Source: a virus
Length of the DNA: 34,159 nucleotides
Virus record (IMG/VR): IMGVR_UViG_3300046002_003840
Coordinates: 1 to 34,159 of that record
Reading direction: 5' to 3' (one strand)
Numbering within the stretch: the first letter of the stretch is position 1; the number at the start of each line of letters is the position of its first letter. The notes beneath the pieces are model-generated. The model was not told the origin of the DNA and did no database searches. It worked only from the letters and a program-made list of their open reading frames with translations. A program made the position numbers and the translations under genes. Positions 10,234-33,679 of the stretch are shown here, piece after piece.

Positions 10234-10743
10234 ATGGCACTATCAACATTTTATTTTAAGAAGGCAATTGAAAAGTTTGGTGAAGCATATATTAAAGAAT
10301 TAACTAAACAATTAATAATAGCTGATAAAAAGGCAAGCGGTGAATTAATAGAAAGTTTAGATTATCAATTAACAGAAACTTCTAATGAGATTTTATTGAA
10401 AATAACCGCTAATGCCTATTTAATAAATGTAGATGAAGGTAGAAAAAAAGGAGCCAGAATGCCACCTGGTCCAAAGATAGGTAAATGGGCTAAAATAAAA
10501 GGATTAGGACTAACTCATAAGGGTATTAAATATAAAAATTATGAACAAGTTGGTTGGGCCATATCAAGAGGTATAAGTAGAAATGGTATAAAACCAACAA
10601 ATGTTTTAGAAAAATCAAAAACTGCCCTATTTAATAATAAAAAAGTAATGGATGAGTTAGCAAATGGTGGTTTACTTGATTTAAATAAATTAATAGATGA
10701 TACCTTCAAAGACCTTAAACAAATAAATATAAAGAAAATATAA
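10234..10743 (+). CDS. Head-tail joining protein, HK97 gp10-like
   Basis: A 169-residue protein. The N terminus is a Lys-rich helix. A strand block (NEILLKITANAYLINVDEG) then leads into a basic, Pro/Gly-rich loop (RKKGARMPPGPKIGKWAK), and the C terminus is helical. The combination of a short strand ending in DEGR and a following basic loop is typical of HK97 gp10-like neck proteins, also called virion morphogenesis proteins. It overlaps the next gene by one base. Assignment rests on this pattern and on context. Confidence 0.6.
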   Translation: MALSTFYFKKAIEKFGEAYIKELTKQLIIADKKASGELIESLDYQLTETSNEILLKITANAYLINVDEGRKKGARMPPGPKIGKWAKIKGLGLTHKGIKYKNYEQVGWAISRGISRNGIKPTNVLEKSKTALFNNKKVMDELANGGLLDLNKLIDDTFKDLKQINIKKI

Positions 10744-12503
10744 TGGCAACAGCATCATACACAAGACCACAAATATCAATTAATCAAACACCATCTAAGT
10801 TTAGTCCAGTCTATGCGCCAAATTGGTTTGCATTTACGGCATCTTTTGTTAACACAACTGCTACCGATCCATTCTTAATATGTGATATAAATATTCTAAA
10901 TCAAGCAATACAAGCGCCTACTGTATCAACAGCATTAGGTAGATTTAAAACACCTGGTAGAGAGAATAACTATTTTGTATTTAATCCAGAAGCAGTTATA
11001 AAATCTTATGTATCATATCCATATGAAACAGGTAATCAAACCTATTATGGTATAGGACAGGCAGAATATGTTAACGAACAGGCTGGTTGGGGTGCGCCTT
11101 TAAATAATTTTCCTACTATTGCACCAGAAACTGATGGTATAGTAAAATATAACATGAGATTTGGTTTAGAGTTTAATCCTAATGCCACATTTTCAAGTAT
11201 TAATCCAGTTGGAGCAATTGGACCTGATGGTGTATATAGAGATTATTCAAGATATAAAATAGCTGGTACTAACTCTTTTGCAAATGTAGGTGATATAATA
11301 ACAATTAAAACTACTTCTGGTTTATATACTTACTATGACGGACAAGCACAAGTAATTAATGCATTCACTTTAACAGGTGACACATATATAGAAACTTGGC
11401 AAATAAATAGTCCAACGCTAAATAGTTTATCAAGCGGTAATATAGTAGGACAATTTACTAATATACAAAAAATATATGGTACAACTTCTACCTATTATGG
11501 TTATAATGGTACAAGACAATATGATGAAGTTAGTGTTAACTTTGATAATATATATTATTTTAGACAAAATGGTGCAGTATCACCTGGATTTATATTATCA
11601 AGTTCAACTGCATCCAATTTTAGATTTATGAACGATTATGGTTATGATATGGCTCACGCTATACCAATTAGACCAGGACAAGGTGAGAGAGCAAGATTTT
11701 TATGTGATTTATATGCCGATACAAATAGATTAGTAGCCTTAGAAGTAGTAGAATATAACGCATACGGTGGTACTGTATCAACTTATCAACATATTCTAAC
11801 TGATACTATATCTGGTACATTATATCCTTACAAATGCTTTACAGTTCAATTATTTGATAAAAAAGGTAGATTCGCAAGTAATGCAACGACCACAGGCACA
11901 CCAATAGTAGTAGGTAATTATTATAAGTTTAGTATAAAAGGTTATTTAACAGCTACAACTACACAATTTAACTATGCATCAATATGGTATAAGGCAGAAA
12001 ATCCTTGTAGTCGTTATGAAAATGTAAGAATTAAGTTCTTAAATAGACAAGGTACATGGGCTTATTGGAATTTTAACAAGGATAATAAACAAACTACTAC
12101 TATTGAAAGAAAAGAATTTAAGTCACCAACACAATATGATAGAAGATTAGTAGGTCCAGCAGGATCAGTAGTAAGTTCAACTTCAATTGCTAATCCATTT
12201 AGAATTAGTAAATTAAGAGGACAAAATATTCTATCAATTACCGCAACTGATGAATTCCAAATGAACTCTGATTGGATTAGCGAAGAAGAATATGAATATT
12301 TACAACAATTAATAACAAGTCAGCAGGTATTCTTATTTTATGATACATATACATTAAAGGATAACTCAGTATTAGAATGTGTAAATATACCAATTGTAAT
12401 AACTGATACCAATTTTGAATTTAAAACTACTAATAGAAACCAATTATTCAATTTAGTGTTAAATTATAAAATGGCACAAGATTATAGCATTCAGAATCCG
12501 TAA
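10743..12503 (+). CDS. Large tail/baseplate structural protein
   Basis: A 586-residue, strand-rich protein with many Tyr, Asn and Thr residues and no enzyme motif. The C-terminal 150 residues (VRIKFLNRQGTWAYWNF, LRGQNILSITATDEFQMNSD, WISEEEYEYLQQLITS) resemble a domain common in distal-tail proteins of Bacteroidota phages. With the 1070-residue gene downstream it may form the tail tip or baseplate. The stop codon is followed closely by a structured, GC-richer repeat at 12506-12562. A fibre or adhesin is the alternative. Confidence 0.55.
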   Translation: MATASYTRPQISINQTPSKFSPVYAPNWFAFTASFVNTTATDPFLICDINILNQAIQAPTVSTALGRFKTPGRENNYFVFNPEAVIKSYVSYPYETGNQTYYGIGQAEYVNEQAGWGAPLNNFPTIAPETDGIVKYNMRFGLEFNPNATFSSINPVGAIGPDGVYRDYSRYKIAGTNSFANVGDIITIKTTSGLYTYYDGQAQVINAFTLTGDTYIETWQINSPTLNSLSSGNIVGQFTNIQKIYGTTSTYYGYNGTRQYDEVSVNFDNIYYFRQNGAVSPGFILSSSTASNFRFMNDYGYDMAHAIPIRPGQGERARFLCDLYADTNRLVALEVVEYNAYGGTVSTYQHILTDTISGTLYPYKCFTVQLFDKKGRFASNATTTGTPIVVGNYYKFSIKGYLTATTTQFNYASIWYKAENPCSRYENVRIKFLNRQGTWAYWNFNKDNKQTTTIERKEFKSPTQYDRRLVGPAGSVVSSTSIANPFRISKLRGQNILSITATDEFQMNSDWISEEEYEYLQQLITSQQVFLFYDTYTLKDNSVLECVNIPIVITDTNFEFKTTNRNQLFNLVLNYKMAQDYSIQNP

Positions 12504-12505
12504 GA

Positions 12506-12562
12506 TAACGGCACACCAACTTTTACTTGCGACTATCGCTCGTTATTGGACTCGCTGTCGCC
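12506..12562 (+). repeat. Structured intergenic element, copy A of an inverted pair
   Basis: This stretch is much richer in G and C than its surroundings. It aligns, with gaps, to the reverse complement of 13311-13366: shared CGGCACAC, a TTACT-GCG block, a short hairpin and a CTCGC box. The hairpin is GCGA-CTA-TCGC at 12529-12539 here and GCG-AAGA-CGC at 13336-13345 in copy B, so pairing is kept while sequence changes. TAACG at 12506-12510 can pair with CGTTA at 12541-12545. The pair brackets the gene at 12582. Confidence 0.6.
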
Positions 12563-12581
12563 AAAAAATAAAGTGAATAAT

Positions 12582-13106
12582 ATGATAGATAAGATAAAGA
12601 ATATAATTATAGTAATGCTGCTATTTCTGATAGGCTTCTTTGTGTTAAATGAACAAAAGAATATAGTGTATAGGGATAGAATAAAGTATGATACAATCAA
12701 CTTAAAATCATTTGTTGAAGTTAAATCTAAACCAATTATAATTAACCATATTAAACATGATACAACCGAATTACCACCACATATAGATACGGTTAAAGTA
12801 ATAGATTCTTTTTATTCTAAAAATATATATATGGATACCATAAAATCAGGTAATAATAAAATAATTATAAATGATACACTACAAAAAAATCAAATAATAG
12901 GCAGATCTGTTAAAATAGAATTGGAGAACATAATGTTAAAGCCAATAAAGCAGAAAACACAGACAATATTATATTGTAATCCAACCTATAATGGGTCATA
13001 TAATATGAACTTAATTCTAATGCGAAATAATATAGGAATAAGTGGTGGTATATCTTCACGAGGGACACCATCAATAGGTATAATATTTAAATTAAAAGCT
13101 ATCTAA
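12582..13106 (+). CDS. Membrane-anchored periplasmic protein, spanin-like candidate
   Basis: I chose the ATG at 12582 (174 residues) because an in-frame ATG at 12546 lies inside the structured repeat. Residues 7-24 form one transmembrane helix (IIIVMLLFLIGFFVL) behind a short basic N terminus, giving a signal-anchored protein with a periplasmic tail. The tail is strand-rich with Asp-Thr repeats (YDTINL, HDTTEL, IDTVKV, MDTIKS) and a glycine-rich end (GISGGISSRGTPSIGIIF). Such one-helix proteins in Bacteroidota phages may act as inner-membrane spanins or tail-related factors; neither is proven. Its stop codon sits in the loop of a terminator hairpin. Confidence 0.6.
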   Translation: MIDKIKNIIIVMLLFLIGFFVLNEQKNIVYRDRIKYDTINLKSFVEVKSKPIIINHIKHDTTELPPHIDTVKVIDSFYSKNIYMDTIKSGNNKIIINDTLQKNQIIGRSVKIELENIMLKPIKQKTQTILYCNPTYNGSYNMNLILMRNNIGISGGISSRGTPSIGIIFKLKAI

Positions 13107-13120
13107 GGGTAGCTTTTTTT
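13094..13120 (+). terminator. Rho-independent terminator after the membrane protein gene
   Basis: AAAAGCTA at 13094-13101 and TAGCTTTT at 13110-13117 form an eight-base-pair stem with an eight-base loop, followed by T residues to 13120. The loop contains the stop codon at 13104-13106. It closes the upstream tail transcript before the long gap to 13440. Confidence 0.75.
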
Positions 13121-13243
13121 GTGTTAAGAAGTAGGTATACTAATAGTAAAGCAAAAGATCTGCAACATCTATGATATAATATAGAATAATAATAAACAAT
13201 AAATAATAAATAATAATAATAAATATATAATAGTAACAATTCT

Positions 13244-13297
13244 TATATCCAATGCCAGAACCATAATAGATACTGACATCTCCAAGCACAAAAATCA
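13244..13297. repeat. Dispersed repeat, copy 1
   Basis: Bases 13250-13272 match 33633-33655 exactly over 23 bases, the shared core being CAATGCCAGAACCATAAT plus five more. With one mismatch the match extends left to 13244, and it continues right through a short hairpin (AGATnnnnnnATCT), an AGCA block and an AAAATCA block. Both copies are preceded by an A/T-rich repeat tract. Coding is unlikely because differences fall on all codon positions. Confidence 0.85.
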
Positions 13298-13310
13298 CAT
13301 TTGCTTGTAG

Positions 13311-13366
13311 CGGCGAGCAACACAACTACCAGTTGGCGAAGACGCAGTAAGAGTATAGTGTGCCGG
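13311..13366 (-). repeat. Structured intergenic element, copy B of an inverted pair
   Basis: The reverse complement begins CCGGCACAC and follows the same order of blocks as copy A at 12506-12562, including the GCG-TCTT-CGC hairpin and a CTCGC box. A further hairpin, CAACT-ACC-AGTTG, is at 13323-13335. The pair is inverted around the membrane protein gene, about 0.8 kb apart. Confidence 0.6.
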
Positions 13367-13439
13367 TATTCAATTAATTATAAAAAAGCAAAAATAATCT
13401 TTTTAAAATTAATATATATAAATATAAATAAACATAATT

Positions 13440-16400
13440 ATGGCATTAGAAATAATAGTTAAGCAAGATACTTTTAATACGGTATTAGATATATTTCAAG
13501 ATGAATCATTTGAGGTAACTTATTCAATTAACACAATAAAAGATATATCACAGAGTAATGGTTCATATACAAAAACTATATCATTACCAGACACACCTAA
13601 AAATAGGCAAGTGTTTGGCTATGCCACTAACTTATCAACCAATTTAGAGTTCAATTCAACTACATCATTTACACCAGTAGCAAATAGATATAATCCTAAT
13701 AAGAAATTAAGATGTAATGTATTAGAGGATGGTATAAATGTATTAGAAGGCTATATACAATTAACAAAATACCTTATAAATGAGTATAATAAGTCAATTG
13801 AGGCTGTAATATATGCTGATAACACTTCATTTTATATCAATATGGGTGATAAGCTACTTACTGATATAGATTTTAGTGAATATAACTTTACATTTAACTT
13901 AACAAGTATAACTCAATCGTGGAGTAATGATTTATTTTCTTATAACAGAGGTGTTTATTTTCCTTTAATAGATTATGGCTATGGTTGGACTCTAAATGAT
14001 ATATCAGGATTCTCAGCAACAGGCTCATATGGTTTATCTTTTAAGCATTTTAAGCCAGCCACATATATTAAAACTATTTTTGATAAAGTGTTTCAATCAA
14101 ATGGATATAATTATCAATCAAAGTTTTTAGGCACAAATAATTCAGCAAATAGCGGCACAACGGTATCTTTTGCGGATCCAAGATTTGGTGGTTTAGTTAT
14201 ACCATTTAGTAATCCTAACTTCCAGTCTGATGCTATGATTACACAAGATAAGATATTCTTTGTAGGTCTATCTGCTTCAACTATAAGTCAATATAGTACA
14301 TACGATGTAGATTTTTATCAAACAAAATGGGGTACGGCATCTGCACCACCAATAAAAGCAATTGTAAATGCGAGAGGTATAGACACAGTACTTTTTCCTA
14401 TAGCCAATAATGGACTAAAAAAACTATGGTATAATGCTTATATGTTAAGTCCGTTTGATTTACCAGCACATATAGCATCTAAAAATGCTTACTTAAATAA
14501 TACCTCACCATTTTATATTTACGATTCGAAAACGATTCCGTTTACGAGAGCCACAAATCCACTATTTAACACAACGGTAGGATCAGCATCAACTTATAAT
14601 TTAACAGCGAGTCATTATGAAAACTTATCAGGTACGGTATTTAAGCAAAGATTTGTTGTAAATACCGATATATTGACAAATTATTCATTACAATATAACT
14701 CAGAAAATGGTGTACCAAATAGCACAACAATAACAACACAATCTTATAGATATGTAATGAAGGTTGAATTCTTCCGTTCAAAAAATCCAATAACAGGAGC
14801 AGATGATCCAACTTGGGCGACAGGTACAGGTTATAGAATACCAGGTGACTTTGGTGGTGCATTAGGTATAACATCATCTGCAAGAGTTGTAGATATAGGT
14901 GATATACCAGAAAAAATAGTTCACTGGATTGCAGATAAAAATGGTAATTCAAACTGCTTTACGAGAGGTAAAAAAATAATTGTACCACAAGGACCTAATA
15001 GATATTTAGGAGAATTCTGCACTGACGAAAGAGGATTTACAGCATCACCACCGGCTAAAAATGGTAATAATAGATTTAGATTTAATAGTGGAGATGCTTT
15101 GGCATTTTATTATAATGATGGATATAATCAACCAAATACCAGATTACAAGGTTTATGGGCCAGTGGTGTTAATCCTACAACATTAGTAGATCCATATAAT
15201 GTGGATTTTCAAGCAACACATCAGCCGGGTTATGGTGATTGGTATCAAGATTTACAATTACAAACTATATTTTTAGATGGTGATGATTTTGATCCTTTGT
15301 ATGGTAATTCAGGTAGTATAGTTCTAAATGGTAATAGACCTATTCTTCCAAACGAAAAAGTAAGAGTTGTGTTTACATTTGGTTGTAAATATGGAGGACA
15401 ACAGATGCAAGACCCTGGATTAGGTTTAACACCAACTGCTGCAAATAATAACTTTACATCATATAAACCACCGATGGTTGCCTATTTATTGACAGGTACT
15501 GACCTTGCTGGTTATAATAATGGTTCAGATGCTGATCCAAAAACTAAGTTCTGGAATGATATATCACCAGATTATATACCAGGTATGACGGTATCTTTTG
15601 TAGATTGTATACCAAAAAATCTTAAACAAAGAGATTTTATTCAGGATATAGTTAGGATGCATAATCTTTATATTGAGCCAACTAAATTAAGTAAGATACC
15701 GAACCAACTTATAATAGAACCAAGAGATGAGTATTATACATTAAGTTCTGATATTTTAAATTGGACTAATAAGTTAGATATATCAGAACCAATTGATGTT
15801 AAATTACTGGCTGAAACACAATATAAGAGAACATTATTTACATTTAAAGAAGATGGTGACTATTATAATAAACAATATAAGCAAAATACTAATGAAAATT
15901 ATGGACAATATATTTATAGTATAGATAATGACTTCTTAACGGATGAATTAAAGATAGAATCTAATTTTTCACCAACACCAATGAGTCCTTTATACGCAAT
16001 ATCAACCACAGGTACACCAATTTTAAGAACAGGTGGATTTATATTACCAGTTTTCTTATCAGGAGATAATGCTAAATCATCTTCTAATGGTGGTAATAAT
16101 ATTACAAATGTAAATTATAGGATTTTATATAGAAAATATATAAAAACAAAAAATGAAGATAAGATTTATATATTCAACGGTTTAACTGATACATATCCAT
16201 ATGCTGGACCATATGACGATCCATATACACCAACATATGCTGTAAATTGGGGACAAACAAGAGGTGAATTCTTCCCAGTAGCAACAGATCAGTTCTTTGA
16301 AAATCTTGTAAATAACTATTGGGCGTCATTATTATCAGAATTAAGTGATATGGATTCAAGATTTGTAACTTGTAAAATGTTCTTAATGGCAGAAGATATA

Positions 16401-16652
16401 AATAACTTTTATTTTTATAAACAAATCTTATTAACGATAGATGGTGTAGATGGATATTATAAAGTAAATAGTATAGAAGGATTTACACCAGGTACAAATA
16501 ATTTATGTACTGTTACTTTATTAAGATCTAACTCAAATCTACCAAGAAAAACATATCAAGGTTCAACAAATACACCTCGTTCAACCAGTATATATCTTGT
16601 AAGTGGTGGTGGTGCATCAATACCAACATCAGGTGGATCACCAACATTCTAA
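13440..16652 (+). CDS. Large baseplate/tail hub-like protein
   Basis: The longest plus-strand product, 1070 residues. The N-terminal 130 residues (LPDTPKNRQVFGYATNL, VLEDGINVLEGYIQLTKYL) match the style of tail-tip or hub proteins seen in Bacteroidota phages. The middle is strand-rich; the C-terminal 100 residues (FYFYKQILLTIDGVDGYYKV) end in a Gly/Ser/Thr-rich tail. No lytic or protease motif was found. A location at the distal tail is inferred from size, position before the fibre and tape measure genes, and the N-terminal resemblance. The ATG at 13440 follows a long A/T-rich leader. Confidence 0.65.
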   Translation: MALEIIVKQDTFNTVLDIFQDESFEVTYSINTIKDISQSNGSYTKTISLPDTPKNRQVFGYATNLSTNLEFNSTTSFTPVANRYNPNKKLRCNVLEDGINVLEGYIQLTKYLINEYNKSIEAVIYADNTSFYINMGDKLLTDIDFSEYNFTFNLTSITQSWSNDLFSYNRGVYFPLIDYGYGWTLNDISGFSATGSYGLSFKHFKPATYIKTIFDKVFQSNGYNYQSKFLGTNNSANSGTTVSFADPRFGGLVIPFSNPNFQSDAMITQDKIFFVGLSASTISQYSTYDVDFYQTKWGTASAPPIKAIVNARGIDTVLFPIANNGLKKLWYNAYMLSPFDLPAHIASKNAYLNNTSPFYIYDSKTIPFTRATNPLFNTTVGSASTYNLTASHYENLSGTVFKQRFVVNTDILTNYSLQYNSENGVPNSTTITTQSYRYVMKVEFFRSKNPITGADDPTWATGTGYRIPGDFGGALGITSSARVVDIGDIPEKIVHWIADKNGNSNCFTRGKKIIVPQGPNRYLGEFCTDERGFTASPPAKNGNNRFRFNSGDALAFYYNDGYNQPNTRLQGLWASGVNPTTLVDPYNVDFQATHQPGYGDWYQDLQLQTIFLDGDDFDPLYGNSGSIVLNGNRPILPNEKVRVVFTFGCKYGGQQMQDPGLGLTPTAANNNFTSYKPPMVAYLLTGTDLAGYNNGSDADPKTKFWNDISPDYIPGMTVSFVDCIPKNLKQRDFIQDIVRMHNLYIEPTKLSKIPNQLIIEPRDEYYTLSSDILNWTNKLDISEPIDVKLLAETQYKRTLFTFKEDGDYYNKQYKQNTNENYGQYIYSIDNDFLTDELKIESNFSPTPMSPLYAISTTGTPILRTGGFILPVFLSGDNAKSSSNGGNNITNVNYRILYRKYIKTKNEDKIYIFNGLTDTYPYAGPYDDPYTPTYAVNWGQTRGEFFPVATDQFFENLVNNYWASLLSELSDMDSRFVTCKMFLMAEDINNFYFYKQILLTIDGVDGYYKVNSIEGFTPGTNNLCTVTLLRSNSNLPRKTYQGSTNTPRSTSIYLVSGGGASIPTSGGSPTF

Positions 16653-28368: not shown

Positions 28369-28396
28369 AAAAGCCATCCATTGGATGGCTTTTTTT
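28369..28396. terminator. Terminator after the helicase-methyltransferase gene
   Basis: AAAAGCCATCCA at 28369-28380 and TGGATGGCTTTT at 28382-28393 form an almost perfect palindrome with T residues to 28396. It overlaps the stop codon of the minus-strand gene at 28395-28397, whose transcript it ends. On the minus strand the T tail after the stem is short, so it may be only moderately efficient. Confidence 0.75.
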
Positions 28397-31300
28397 ATTT
28401 AATACCATCTATGTAAATAAATTTGTCTGTATTTTTATATATATCAGAACATTTAAATCCACAACTTTCAATTATATCTTTTAATCTTTTTTCGTTGTTT
28501 TTCCATTTGCTTGCTGGCTCTGCTATATATAATTTACCACCAATTGATAATGTTCTATATGCCTCTTTTATATAATCTTTGCAATTTCTACCCATTAGTG
28601 CCAAACATATAACAGCAACATCTAATGTTTCGTCAGGTAAATTTGTATTTTTTATATCACACTCAATTACAGAATCATCTACCGCAATATAGTCAAATGG
28701 ATAAATTATATTTTTATCAGAAATCTTTTTAGACAGAAGATTTTCACCACAACCAAAATCACCTACAATTGCACCTTCTTCAATTCTATCAGCTATATTA
28801 TAGACTGGTACTTCTAACCAATTTTTAGTAGCTTCTTTATATAGTTCGTGATATTCAAACCAATCTTCTGGATTATCTTTTAATTGTTTTTGTATAGTAT
28901 CAGAATTAGACACACTCCAATTTTGATTCATTTCTGAAAATCTGCCTAATTTAAACTTTCTTCTATTATCTTCATCTAATTCTTCTAATATAACCTCATC
29001 TGCTGTTCTGTCAATAGAATTCATACCATTTTCTTCAATTCTTTTTTTCCATTCTATTAATGAATTTATAGCAGTTCTTTCTAATGATGCTCTATCCATA
29101 ATTTTATCAGAAGGTATATTACCATCAACCGCACAGTCTGCTAATGTTTTTTTCCAATTAATTCTATCTACTCTGTGTTTGTCCCATGACCATATTTGAC
29201 AATCTGTTTCTATATTTATCATAGGTACTGTAATTGTAACTTTATTAGTTTGACCTGGACGATATAATCTACCGATTAATTGTATCCAGTTAGCATTAGT
29301 CCATGGTAAAGAATAAACAATCATATTATCAGATACATTTTGTAAGCCATCAATACCAGTATTTATACAAGACGAACCAATCAGTATATCAACTTGACCA
29401 TTTACAAACTTATCTTTACCTGCTTTATCATCACCTATAAAAAGACCTACACTAAATCCTTGTTGTTCGCAAAATTCTTTAATAGGTAATACTAAACCAT
29501 CTATATATTCGCAATATATTAATGTTCCTTTTTTTAATAAATGTTTTGTTGCTTCTAATTTAAGATTCAGAATAGTCCGTTCAATAGGTAATGTTGGATG
29601 CTTCTTATCAATCAATAATAAGTCATTAACTAATTCTTGTCCGTCAATTATAGGATAATTAATATCCATATCTATATTGTATTGTGGTTTAAATCTAATA
29701 CCATTATTGACTAATTGTGTATGTATCATAATGGCGTTATTAACATCATTTTTACCACTGATTTCTGGAAATTTTTTATTTAATGCCAATTCAAGTAAAG
29801 TTTTAGCTTCATAAAGATTATTAATAACAGGTGTGCCTGTTAGTGACATTACTTTTGTATCATAATTAACACTATTATTCATCTTATAGATTTTATCTAA
29901 GGTGCCTAATAATGTTTTTCTTCTTATTGATTCTTCTTTTTCGGTAGTTTGCTTTGCCTTTTGTATCTCATCAATAATAACCGCTGCAAAATGATATTGA
30001 TTTAATATATCTAATATGTCATTATTTAATCCTTGTTGGAAATATTCATAGTTTAAAATTAAATAGTTCCACTTTGTACCACTATTATCAAATGTGCATT
30101 TCTTATTACCTTTTAAATCTTCTCTTATTACAATATGATTATGGTTAAATGATTTTTTAATTTCTTTAACCCAGGTATCAATAGTAGCATTACAAGTAAT
30201 AATTAAAGTATTACAAACACCGAGTAATTTAGAAACTACTATACAAGGTAGTGTTTTACCAGCACCAGGTAATGATAGGTTCATATATGAATTTCTTTCA
30301 TACATTTCATAGGCAAATACTTTTTGCTCCATATATAAATCATGTGGAAATATATAAGTATCACCTTCAATACTTCCTCTATAATCCCAATGTTCTATAT
30401 TATATATCTTTTCTAATAGTTTAGTTCTTAATGTATCAGAAAAACCATTCTTCTCAAATATTTCATTCTTAAAATAGGCAAATGTTATTTTATCATTAAC
30501 ATATACATTCATCCATTCATTTATATATGATTCTTGTAAAAATATATAAACTTCATTATCCATAAATGAAGATAAATTAACCATATCAATGGCTTTCATC
30601 TCTCTTAATCTTCTACCAGAAGTTAAAGTTTTATCCTCAGTTATATCAAAATCATCTTCATCATAAGTATCAGTATCACCATTTAATCCTGAATATAAAT
30701 CTTCATATGCTTTATTTTGTTGTTCTTCTGTATCCGCATTAATTAATCTTTTAAAGGCAGTATTTTTTCTTAATGTTTCTAAAAAATAACCATTTTTAGC
30801 AGCCTGTATTATTACAATAAGATTTATTGAACTTAAAGTCTTCATAACCGGTTCAAGTTTAGTAATGAAATCTAAAACTTCTTGCTTTATTTCTCTACTT
30901 ATAATATATTTTGCTATATTACCAGTACCTAAAAAATCACCCAAAGATGTCCATCCTTTATCTTTATAAACAATATCTGGTGTTTTTGGTATATCATTTG
31001 GTAATAAACCAGATTTACAATAAGTAATCCATTCTTTTTGATTTTTTAAATTTAAAGTATGTACATATAATTCCGCTTCTTTATAAGATTTGTGTTGTAT
31101 ATTAAATGTCGCAATTGTGCCTGTACCTAAAAAATCACCCCAAGAAATCCATCCTTTATCTTTATAATATATAGCAGCTCCTTTTGGTATGTCTGTTGGT
31201 AATAATCCATCTTTAACACATTTTTTCCATTCTTCAACATTGTTCAATTTTAAAGTCTGCACATATTCTTTTGCATCTTCATAATTTTTAAATTGCATAT

Positions 31301-31895
31301 TTTGTGTCGCAATCGTGCCGGTGTCTAAAAAAGCACCCCAAGAAATCCAACCTTTATCTTTATAAAACTTGTCGGGTGCTTTTGGTATATCTTGTAATAA
31401 TAAACCAGATTTAGCATAATTCCTCCATTCTATTTGAGATTTTAAATTTAAAGTCTGCACATATTCTTTTGCATCTTCATAATTTTTAAATTGCATATTT
31501 TGTGGTGCAATTATTCCAGTGCCTATAAAATCACCAAAAGAAATCCAACCTTTATCTTTAAAAACTTTTCGTGGATTCTTTGGTATATCTGCTGGTAATA
31601 AACCAGATTTAGCATAATCTAACCATTCTGTTTGAGATTTTAAATTTAAAGTCTGCACATATATCTTTGCTTCTTCATAATTTCTTATATTTTTACATGA
31701 GCATCTATTTGTGCCTAAAAAATTATTTAAAGATATCCATCCTTTATTTTTATATGTGCTGGCTGGATGCTTTGGTATATCATCAGGTAATAAACCTGAT
31801 TTACAGTATGTTGTCCATTCTTCACGATTTTTTAAATTTAAACTATGTGCATATAATTCCGCTTCTTCATAAGTTCTATATTGTATTTTACTCAT
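28395..31895 (-). CDS. KGW-repeat / SNF2-like helicase / Rrp8-like methyltransferase fusion
   Basis: A protein of 1166 residues with three parts. Residues 1-330 hold five repeats of about 66 residues, each with a YAKSGLLPxDIPK-type segment and KGWISWGDFLGTG. They resemble the phage-integrase repeat unit (INT_rpt) thought to bind DNA. Residues 520-960 form an SF2 helicase of SNF2 type: Walker A LPGAGKT near 545, DEIQKAK near 643, LTGTP near 687 and QLIGRLYRPGQ near 875. Residues 985-1166 closely follow the Rrp8 methyltransferase domain: WFEYHELYKEATKNW, VGDFGCGENLLSKK, LPDETLDVAVICLALMG and SIGGKLYIAEPASKW. Rrp8 makes m1A in eukaryotic rRNA; the target here is unknown. It likely reads DNA or an RNA-DNA hybrid. 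It has its own promoter (31913-31944) and terminator. Anti-restriction, DNA modification or host takeover are all possible. Confidence 0.85.
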   Translation of the reverse strand: MSKIQYRTYEEAELYAHSLNLKNREEWTTYCKSGLLPDDIPKHPASTYKNKGWISLNNFLGTNRCSCKNIRNYEEAKIYVQTLNLKSQTEWLDYAKSGLLPADIPKNPRKVFKDKGWISFGDFIGTGIIAPQNMQFKNYEDAKEYVQTLNLKSQIEWRNYAKSGLLLQDIPKAPDKFYKDKGWISWGAFLDTGTIATQNMQFKNYEDAKEYVQTLKLNNVEEWKKCVKDGLLPTDIPKGAAIYYKDKGWISWGDFLGTGTIATFNIQHKSYKEAELYVHTLNLKNQKEWITYCKSGLLPNDIPKTPDIVYKDKGWTSLGDFLGTGNIAKYIISREIKQEVLDFITKLEPVMKTLSSINLIVIIQAAKNGYFLETLRKNTAFKRLINADTEEQQNKAYEDLYSGLNGDTDTYDEDDFDITEDKTLTSGRRLREMKAIDMVNLSSFMDNEVYIFLQESYINEWMNVYVNDKITFAYFKNEIFEKNGFSDTLRTKLLEKIYNIEHWDYRGSIEGDTYIFPHDLYMEQKVFAYEMYERNSYMNLSLPGAGKTLPCIVVSKLLGVCNTLIITCNATIDTWVKEIKKSFNHNHIVIREDLKGNKKCTFDNSGTKWNYLILNYEYFQQGLNNDILDILNQYHFAAVIIDEIQKAKQTTEKEESIRRKTLLGTLDKIYKMNNSVNYDTKVMSLTGTPVINNLYEAKTLLELALNKKFPEISGKNDVNNAIMIHTQLVNNGIRFKPQYNIDMDINYPIIDGQELVNDLLLIDKKHPTLPIERTILNLKLEATKHLLKKGTLIYCEYIDGLVLPIKEFCEQQGFSVGLFIGDDKAGKDKFVNGQVDILIGSSCINTGIDGLQNVSDNMIVYSLPWTNANWIQLIGRLYRPGQTNKVTITVPMINIETDCQIWSWDKHRVDRINWKKTLADCAVDGNIPSDKIMDRASLERTAINSLIEWKKRIEENGMNSIDRTADEVILEELDEDNRRKFKLGRFSEMNQNWSVSNSDTIQKQLKDNPEDWFEYHELYKEATKNWLEVPVYNIADRIEEGAIVGDFGCGENLLSKKISDKNIIYPFDYIAVDDSVIECDIKNTNLPDETLDVAVICLALMGRNCKDYIKEAYRTLSIGGKLYIAEPASKWKNNEKRLKDIIESCGFKCSDIYKNTDKFIYIDGIK
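30915..31890 (-). repeat. Five tandem coding repeats of about 198 bases
   Basis: The DNA behind the N-terminal repeats of the fusion protein carries five near-copies. The second to fourth copies share long runs, for example the segment encoding KNYEDAKEYVQTL. Nearly identical DNA among copies three and four suggests recent duplication, so repeat number may vary between relatives. Confidence 0.85.
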
Positions 31896-31912
31896 ATTTT
31901 TTATTGTTTTTA

Positions 31913-31944
31913 CAAAGATACGAAAATAATTCTATACTAACAAA
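31913..31944 (-). promoter_or_regulatory. Bacteroidota promoter for the fusion gene
   Basis: On the minus strand: TTTG at 31944-31941, a 20-base spacer, then TATCTTTG at 31920-31913, exactly the Bacteroidota consensus. The -7 box is the same as in the promoter at 28259-28289. The start codon follows after 17 bases. Two identical boxes before two minus-strand genes imply direct use of host RNA polymerase. Confidence 0.88.
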
Positions 31945-31956
31945 TTATTTTCATAT

Positions 31957-32411: not shown

Positions 32412-33581
32412 ATGAACATTACAATTCCAACACCATTGGTTGATATTATCTTCCAAGCCATAAATATAGATGCCACATTTATGGATTTTAACGAAAAACA
32501 AAAGCAAAAGATTTTTAATAACTGTATAGAATTATGGTTATATATATTGTCACAACAAGATGGCAACAATTATATTAATATACATAATACAACATTGGAT
32601 AAATATTATGTAAAAATAGATAAAAAGTATGGTTATAAGTATTTTTTAACTATATTAGAAAATGCGAACATATTAGATATAAACAATAAGTTTAAATATG
32701 GTACATTTCCAAAAAGTTATAGAGTATTATGTAACTTTACTGCCGACAAAAATACAACAGAAATAAATATAGATTTAAATAAAGTATTCCATAATATACA
32801 ATCAAAAGAATATTGGTTAGATAAATATCCTAAATATGCTCATTTAATAGAAGATTGTTATAGGACTAAAATAGAATTAAATGATTGGGTAATCTTTTTA
32901 TATAGCAATGAGAATATAAAATTAAAATCAACCATAAAAAATGGCTTTTTTAAAGAAAGATATTTAAATGCTGATAGAATTATGGATTATATTATGAGAG
33001 CAATAAAGGTTAATGTTAATAATCTATGGTTTGGTATATCTGAACAAGGTCGCTTTTATTCTTCAATAGCATCTTTACCAGCATTAATTACACCATTTAT
33101 TAGAATAGATAATAAACCAGTAGAGAGTATTGATATACCAAATTGTCAACCATTATTATTGTCATCATTAATAGGTAATAATGATTATAAACAAGATGTA
33201 GAAAATGGTTTATTTTATGAGAAATTAGGTAAAATAATGTATGGCGAATGGAATGTAGATGTAAAACAAAAAGTAAAGTTACAAGTAATGGTAAGATTTT
33301 TTAACCAAGATCAATTAAAGACTGGTGAATTTGTAGATGCTATTAATTTTTTATATCCAGGATTTATACAACAATTAAACTTACTTAAAGAAACCAACAA
33401 GATAGCTCACTTAACACACAAAATGGAGTCTACAATAATGGTAGAAGGTGTTGGGTCATTAAATATGAATAAGATACTTAAACATGATGAGGTATTAATT
33501 TATAAAGAAAATGTTACAAAGGTAAAGAAATATATAGAGAATAAGATATTAAATATTTTTTTGGTGAAGGTAAGTTTATAA
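32412..33581 (+). CDS. Compact polymerase-like protein (family-A motifs)
   Basis: A 389-residue protein. From about 215 on it shows a diverged polymerase palm in order. Motif A is SIDIPNCQPLLLSSL near 238-252, preceded by GRFYSSIASLPALIT. A motif B-like stretch (KQKVKLQVMVRFFNQDQ) is near 285-300, then a fingers-like segment (INFLYPGFIQQLNLLKE). Motif C is ILKHDEVLIY near 355-364, with the HDE triad of DNA polymerase A. No exonuclease domain is present, and the first 200 residues are not recognised. I think this is the phage replicase or a single-subunit RNA polymerase relative, found in many uncharacterised Bacteroidota phages. No primase, SSB or replicative helicase is seen elsewhere. The C terminus may be altered by a frameshift at 33557. 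Confidence 0.6.
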   Translation: MNITIPTPLVDIIFQAINIDATFMDFNEKQKQKIFNNCIELWLYILSQQDGNNYINIHNTTLDKYYVKIDKKYGYKYFLTILENANILDINNKFKYGTFPKSYRVLCNFTADKNTTEINIDLNKVFHNIQSKEYWLDKYPKYAHLIEDCYRTKIELNDWVIFLYSNENIKLKSTIKNGFFKERYLNADRIMDYIMRAIKVNVNNLWFGISEQGRFYSSIASLPALITPFIRIDNKPVESIDIPNCQPLLLSSLIGNNDYKQDVENGLFYEKLGKIMYGEWNVDVKQKVKLQVMVRFFNQDQLKTGEFVDAINFLYPGFIQQLNLLKETNKIAHLTHKMESTIMVEGVGSLNMNKILKHDEVLIYKENVTKVKKYIENKILNIFLVKVSL

Positions 33582-33626
33582 ATAATAAAATAATAATAAA
33601 TAAATAATATAATAATACAACATTCA

Positions 33627-33679
33627 TATATTCAATGCCAGAACCATAATAGATATTAGTATCTCGGAGCAAAAAATCA
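33627..33679. repeat. Dispersed repeat, copy 2
   Basis: The partner of 13244-13297. It abuts the stop codon (33677-33679) of the GIY-YIG gene and follows an A/T-rich tract after the polymerase-like gene. The hairpin AGATA-TTAG-TATCT here replaces AGAT-ACTGAC-ATCT in copy 1, so pairing is kept while bases differ. Confidence 0.85.

Follow-up and report, generated by a model that had tools for sequence, protein, structure and literature searches.

The stretch from just after position 12503 to about position 13370 of the virus contig IMGVR_UViG_3300046002_003840 is very probably a moron-like insertion, specific to this lineage, that added a single accessory gene between two phage genes; in most relatives these two genes adjoin each other. 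The whole contig, 34,159 bases long with 28.9% GC, was analysed and is referred to here as the window. The parts of this best explanation that are directly visible are the insertion relative to related viruses, a terminator, imperfect inverted spacers at the outer edges and a repeat shared with another variable junction. The contig has an exact end repeat of 126 nt, and a family search of window proteins found a Terminase_3 large subunit, an endolysin and a weak holin match. The portal protein matched annotated phages only among Nonlabens phages, at 24% identity; the record names no host, which on such sequence grounds would be a member of the Bacteroidota of the flavobacterial kind. Several further IMG/VR contigs belong to the same virus, and among those compared only one (L002) covers the locus, being identical to the window from 12504 to 13474.

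The upstream flanking gene (10743..12503, + strand) encodes a protein of 586 aa without a family match and lies next to the downstream flanking gene in most relatives. Directly after its stop codon at 12503 there is a GC-rich spacer, element A (12504..12575, +), which was delimited by alignment, shuffles and the list of intergenic regions and fills the 78 nt that precede the start codon at 12582. The inserted gene itself (12582..13106, +; 174 aa) was examined as an open reading frame and by family searches, phmmer and alignment. Its end is overlapped by an intrinsic terminator (13094..13117, +), with a 10-pair stem containing 3 G-C pairs and followed by a T run, so that the terminator reported inside the bracket by the preliminary description was recovered. 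Downstream of it lie the first copy of a direct repeat, D11 (13199..13297, +), and, abutting it, a second GC-rich spacer in inverted orientation, element B (13296..13370, −), delimited by alignment and shuffles. An AT-rich leader (13371..13439, +), which carries a TATATATA site at 13413 belonging to repeat family D6 and has a putative promoter role, separates B from the downstream flanking gene (13440..16652, +), whose 1070-aa product is likewise without a family match. It was also observed that the frame across 12504-12581 is fully open, with 26 codons in phase with both the upstream gene and the inserted gene. A coding role for A was rejected, this open frame being read as chance, and B has no comparable frame. 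A diversity-generating retroelement, considered because of the codon pattern of A and B, was likewise rejected, as no reverse transcriptase match was found among the window proteins searched.

The gain of the gene was evaluated in related viruses. The terminase alignment comprised 80 viral loci, two of them from the same virus, and profile searches with the two flanking proteins were carried out in 83 loci (L022, L025-L103 and three contig extensions). Both flanking genes were present in 29 of the 83, the other 54 being fragments or beyond detection and, consequently, uninformative. In 25 of these 29 contigs the flanking genes adjoin each other, the intervals measuring −10 to 52 nt and holding neither the gene nor the elements, while 936 nt separate them in the window; it is on this basis that the stretch is regarded as a lineage-specific insertion. 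The gap is 3 nt in the contig with the closest terminase (L025/L118, 70%) and 9 nt in L028 and L029. When the contigs were clustered by their upstream proteins with a 90% identity cut-off, contiguity was found in 22 of 24 clusters. Additionally, the insertion is missing from L028, L029, L030, L035, L036 and L118, the six contigs with which the window forms a supported clade (96/85) in the tree. The comparison proposed in the preliminary description, between relatives that have the bracketed gene and those that lack it, favours gene gain. The upstream flanking protein shares at most 29% identity with that of any relative and, because the flanking proteins are so distant, the empty site cannot be aligned base by base; the polarity would be that of a gain and not a loss, which is the most parsimonious reading.

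The remaining four contigs (L053, L055, L060 and L079; two clusters, one virus group) have 736-1083 nt at the same junction, the 1083-nt gap being partly the 5′ end of the downstream gene, missed by the choice of start codon. An unrelated open frame, about 235-250 codons long, occupies the site in all four, so that single genes have been taken up at this junction more than once. The start of this frame resembles a signal peptide, and the junction has the appearance of an insertion hotspot.

A single membrane helix is visible in the sequence at the N terminus of the inserted protein; a low-confidence structure model (pLDDT 34), too poor to be used beyond the helix, places it at residues 2-24. 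No Pfam, PHROGs, NCBIfam or PADLOC family was matched at useful E-values, and no relative in annotated phages was found below E 1. L064 and L067 encode a weak homologue upstream of the terminase (26-27% identity; E 3.6e-5 in a phmmer search of 4364 ORFs), and their flanking genes (extensions L119 and L120) adjoin each other. The product is probably an accessory protein anchored in the inner membrane, and a spanin-like or superinfection-exclusion-like, envelope-related function would be a guess. A nucleotide composition unlike that of the rest of the phage is a criterion for morons. Here the inserted gene has the lowest GC (25%, against 27-39% in 19 other genes) and the spacers are GC-rich, while its GC3 of 0.21 falls within the range of the other genes. 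Because ordinary GC3 is combined with the lowest GC, no clear donor is pointed to.

As to expression, a single terminator (13094-13117) was found where 0.4 were expected in shuffles, and 16 sigma-70-like matches were counted against 11.7 expected, with no promoter of the gene's own standing out. Nine of the 15 TATATATA sites fall within the noncoding 9% of the window, and such a site also precedes several other phage genes. A TATATA box was observed at a fixed 11 nt, or at about 27 nt, before several starts (leaders of 5797, 10234, 13440, 18014, 20674 and 22292) and may act as a promoter or leader signal of the phage; none occurs in the 60 nt upstream of the inserted gene. The inserted gene would be read from upstream transcription, its transcript would stop at 13117, and the downstream gene would then be restarted from its own AT-rich leader.

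The two spacers that bound the insertion resemble each other in inverted orientation. The preliminary description had noticed a sequence common to both, and CGGCACAC is indeed found at two places in the window, 12509-12516 (+) and 13358-13365 (−), where 0.10 occurrences are expected; it did not appear twice in any of 100 shuffles. The alignment of A (12505-12539) with the reverse complement of B (13369-13336) has 29 identical columns out of 36, with 4 mismatches and 3 gaps, and reads ATAACGGCACACCA-ACTTTTACTTGCGACTATCGC / ATACCGGCACACTATACTCTTAC-TGCGTCT-TCGC; the parts involved are 12505-12539 in A and 13336-13369 in B. Opposite orientation and the bracketing of 12582..13106 are confirmed, while the CTCGC box said to be common to both falls outside the reliable part of this alignment. 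Dinucleotide shuffling equalled its local score of 31 in 0 of 1000 cases in one test and in 2 of 20000 in another. Among 2565 inverted pairs of GC-rich 75-nt segments in the window, A/B alone scored 31, and the best other matches of A or B within the window were 23/25. Across 86 further GC-rich noncoding islands, drawn from the window and from 49 AT-rich relatives, A or B scored 26 at best, and the highest score against 966 kb of other sequence was 30. A match of A in a Polaribacter phage (score 28) was dismissed, as it involves 19 nt at the opposite end of A. Among the inverted window pairs less than 2 kb apart, of any composition, 32 of 101,871 also score 31, mostly AT-rich ones, so that the support for A/B is moderate and not overwhelming. 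The resemblance exceeds chance to a moderate degree and is confined to about 36 nt. Within the noncoding islands of L032-L035, L059 and L069, a short sequence, TTTGGTGAGTAGAG, was seen in common, beside hairpins.

Neither element behaves as a structured one. The folding z-scores of A and B against shuffled DNA were −0.05, −0.93, −0.01 and −0.21, and the candidate hairpin amounts to 4 bp in A and 3 bp in B. The compensated hairpin and the terminal structures that had been proposed find no support as structures, since neither element folds better than shuffled DNA; across A, B and D11 the z-scores ranged from −0.93 to 0.81, and D11 has no stable fold either. In the Rfam search of the window a tRNA alone exceeded the threshold, accompanied by two sub-threshold matches at E 1.8, and no family was assigned to A or B. 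Kin of A or B were absent from 50,697 phage records and from the related viral contigs searched, and plasmids gave matches at E 7-8 only. A looser pattern retrieved 5 matches in viral contigs, namely one from the same virus and four chance matches in GC-rich phages. Two exact patterns were scanned across 84,980 bacterial and archaeal genomes, with 0 and 2 matches. The two matches were rejected, as they lie in GC-rich coding DNA of one Nitrosomonadales and one Clostridia MAG and do not exceed the number expected by chance, as estimated by hand. The proposed host-derived origin of the elements is accordingly unsupported, the genome scans having returned chance matches only.

The direct repeat D11, which the first reading of the window had missed, occurs in two copies, at 13199-13297 and 33578-33679 (both +), that are 84.6% identical over 104 columns. 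The second copy was identified by repeat comparison and occupies the whole gap between a variable gene, whose stop lies at 33581, and the stop codon with which a GIY-YIG endonuclease gene ends. The conserved core CAATGCCAGAACCATAATAGATA contains a tiny frame, ATG CCA GAA CCA TAA; its 23 nt were not found in viral contigs outside this virus, nor was a 15-nt core found in other loci of the relative set. Each copy comes after a + strand gene that varies among relatives. The 33.6-kb copy accompanies one allele of the neighbouring gene and is missing with the other, as L002 has at this junction a different neighbouring gene and no D11. The presence of D11 at two variable places suggests a link with gene exchange, and is taken as a lead. 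On the same junction, it was observed that the window (32412-33679) and L002 (1-1105) carry very different genes beside the same GIY-YIG endonuclease gene while the genomes are otherwise nearly identical, the switch point being the stop codon of the endonuclease gene. Repeats of another kind were seen at 30901-31953, where five tandem units of about 198 nt each, coding repeated units of about 66 aa, belong to the N-terminal region of a helicase-methyltransferase fusion of 1166 aa encoded on the minus strand (28395-31895).

How the segment entered was considered under several explanations. On the simplest view A and B, which form an imperfect inverted pair over about 36 nt, may be relics of the ends by which it did so. 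Mobility through such ends is weakly indicated at best, because no transposase match among the window proteins searched, no target duplication and no attC was found. The idea of a gene cassette or small mobile unit is thus retained for the gain of the gene and not for its mobility, for which neither machinery nor target duplication was detected. The evidence is about evenly poised on whether ordinary illegitimate or homology-poor phage recombination brought the gene in, with A and B either as leftover spacers whose likeness is partly coincidental or as elements that each have a local role of their own, such as an mRNA leader or a boundary. The shortness and moderate degree of the similarity, the 32 nearby inverted pairs with the same score and the folding z-scores near 0 agree with such an origin, and D11 at a second variable junction fits piecemeal exchange. 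It is harder to reconcile with A/B being the only GC-rich pair to reach 31 and with the failure of either element to reach that score in the 966 kb of other sequence. A small non-autonomous unit with one cargo gene, bounded by A and B as true terminal inverted repeats and mobilised by a transposase or recombinase supplied from elsewhere, would account for an inverted, outermost pair with an identical 8-bp core, 29 matching columns and only two equally good shuffles, at the edges of a segment that is itself an insertion. This interpretation is nonetheless doubtful, considering that no bases are shared directly outside either plausible boundary, that the record has one copy of the unit and the only other record with it is the identical copy in the same virus (L002), that the phage, plasmid and exact-pattern genome searches gave no kin of A/B, and that no transposase or recombinase was matched among the window proteins searched, a subset of the ORFs.

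Elements acquired together with the gene as host-derived repetitive palindromes of the REP/BIME kind would likewise be short, intergenic, GC-rich relative to the phage and arranged as an inverted pair. This origin is improbable, since A and B are not palindromic and the two exact patterns had no real genome match, the two that were retrieved being coding and GC-rich. Slightly less probable still is a cassette system of the phage's own, in which a one-gene unit with GC-rich inverted ends A/B would be moved in trans, D11 would be a shared 3′ element after two separately acquired genes, and gene and D11 would be exchanged together. Such a pairing of gene and D11 would resemble that of gene and attC in integrons, the sequences being unrelated. 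Finally, pairs of attC sites have been reported around methyltransferase genes in Polaribacter phage P12002L (PMC9892861), which made it reasonable to ask whether A and B are attC sites and the gene an integron cassette. As far as sequence goes this is refuted, as A and B contain no RYYYAAC...GTTRRRY pair and no long palindrome, fold with z near 0 and belong to no Rfam family.

The mechanisms by which phages gain single accessory genes are seldom visible, and the insertion described here is clean, at a junction that has served more than once within this virus group. Its outer spacers and internal repeat are candidate boundary sequences. If the A/B ends are mobile, the segment would be a new small mobile unit; otherwise, it is one more well-documented moron.

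Among known systems, nothing on inverted ends around single genes in this virus group was recognised in the open-licence papers searched. With the integron cassettes without integrase (CALIN) of phages (PMC9892861), the locus shares a gene flanked by structured-looking spacers, an AT-rich phage and, probably, a Bacteroidota host, and differs in that attC boxes and palindromes are missing. The exchange boundaries associated with homing endonucleases (PMC10448857) find a parallel in the GIY-YIG gene at the border of the neighbouring genes that differ between the window and L002; that junction, however, is at 33.7 kb and is linked to the insertion by D11 only. Morons are described in PMC3029335 as insertions of single genes at places where related phages have the neighbouring genes side by side, and the locus resembles them in having one gene and a terminator between genes contiguous in most relatives. 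It departs from them in lacking a promoter of its own that stands out among the sigma-70-like matches, and in its imperfect inverted outer spacers, which lie outside the moron definition as worded there. PMC3029335 also describes MPME1/2, small mycobacteriophage units with inverted repeats at their ends that are absent from related genomes; MPME1 has 439 bp, is identical between phages, occupies several insertion sites and carries an extra 6 bp beside the left inverted repeat. The present segment is also a small phage unit with inverted ends, absent from relatives, although it is about 866 bp long and is known from one site, without a second independent copy. Judged on their description, the MPMEs come closest among the phage units with inverted ends already described.
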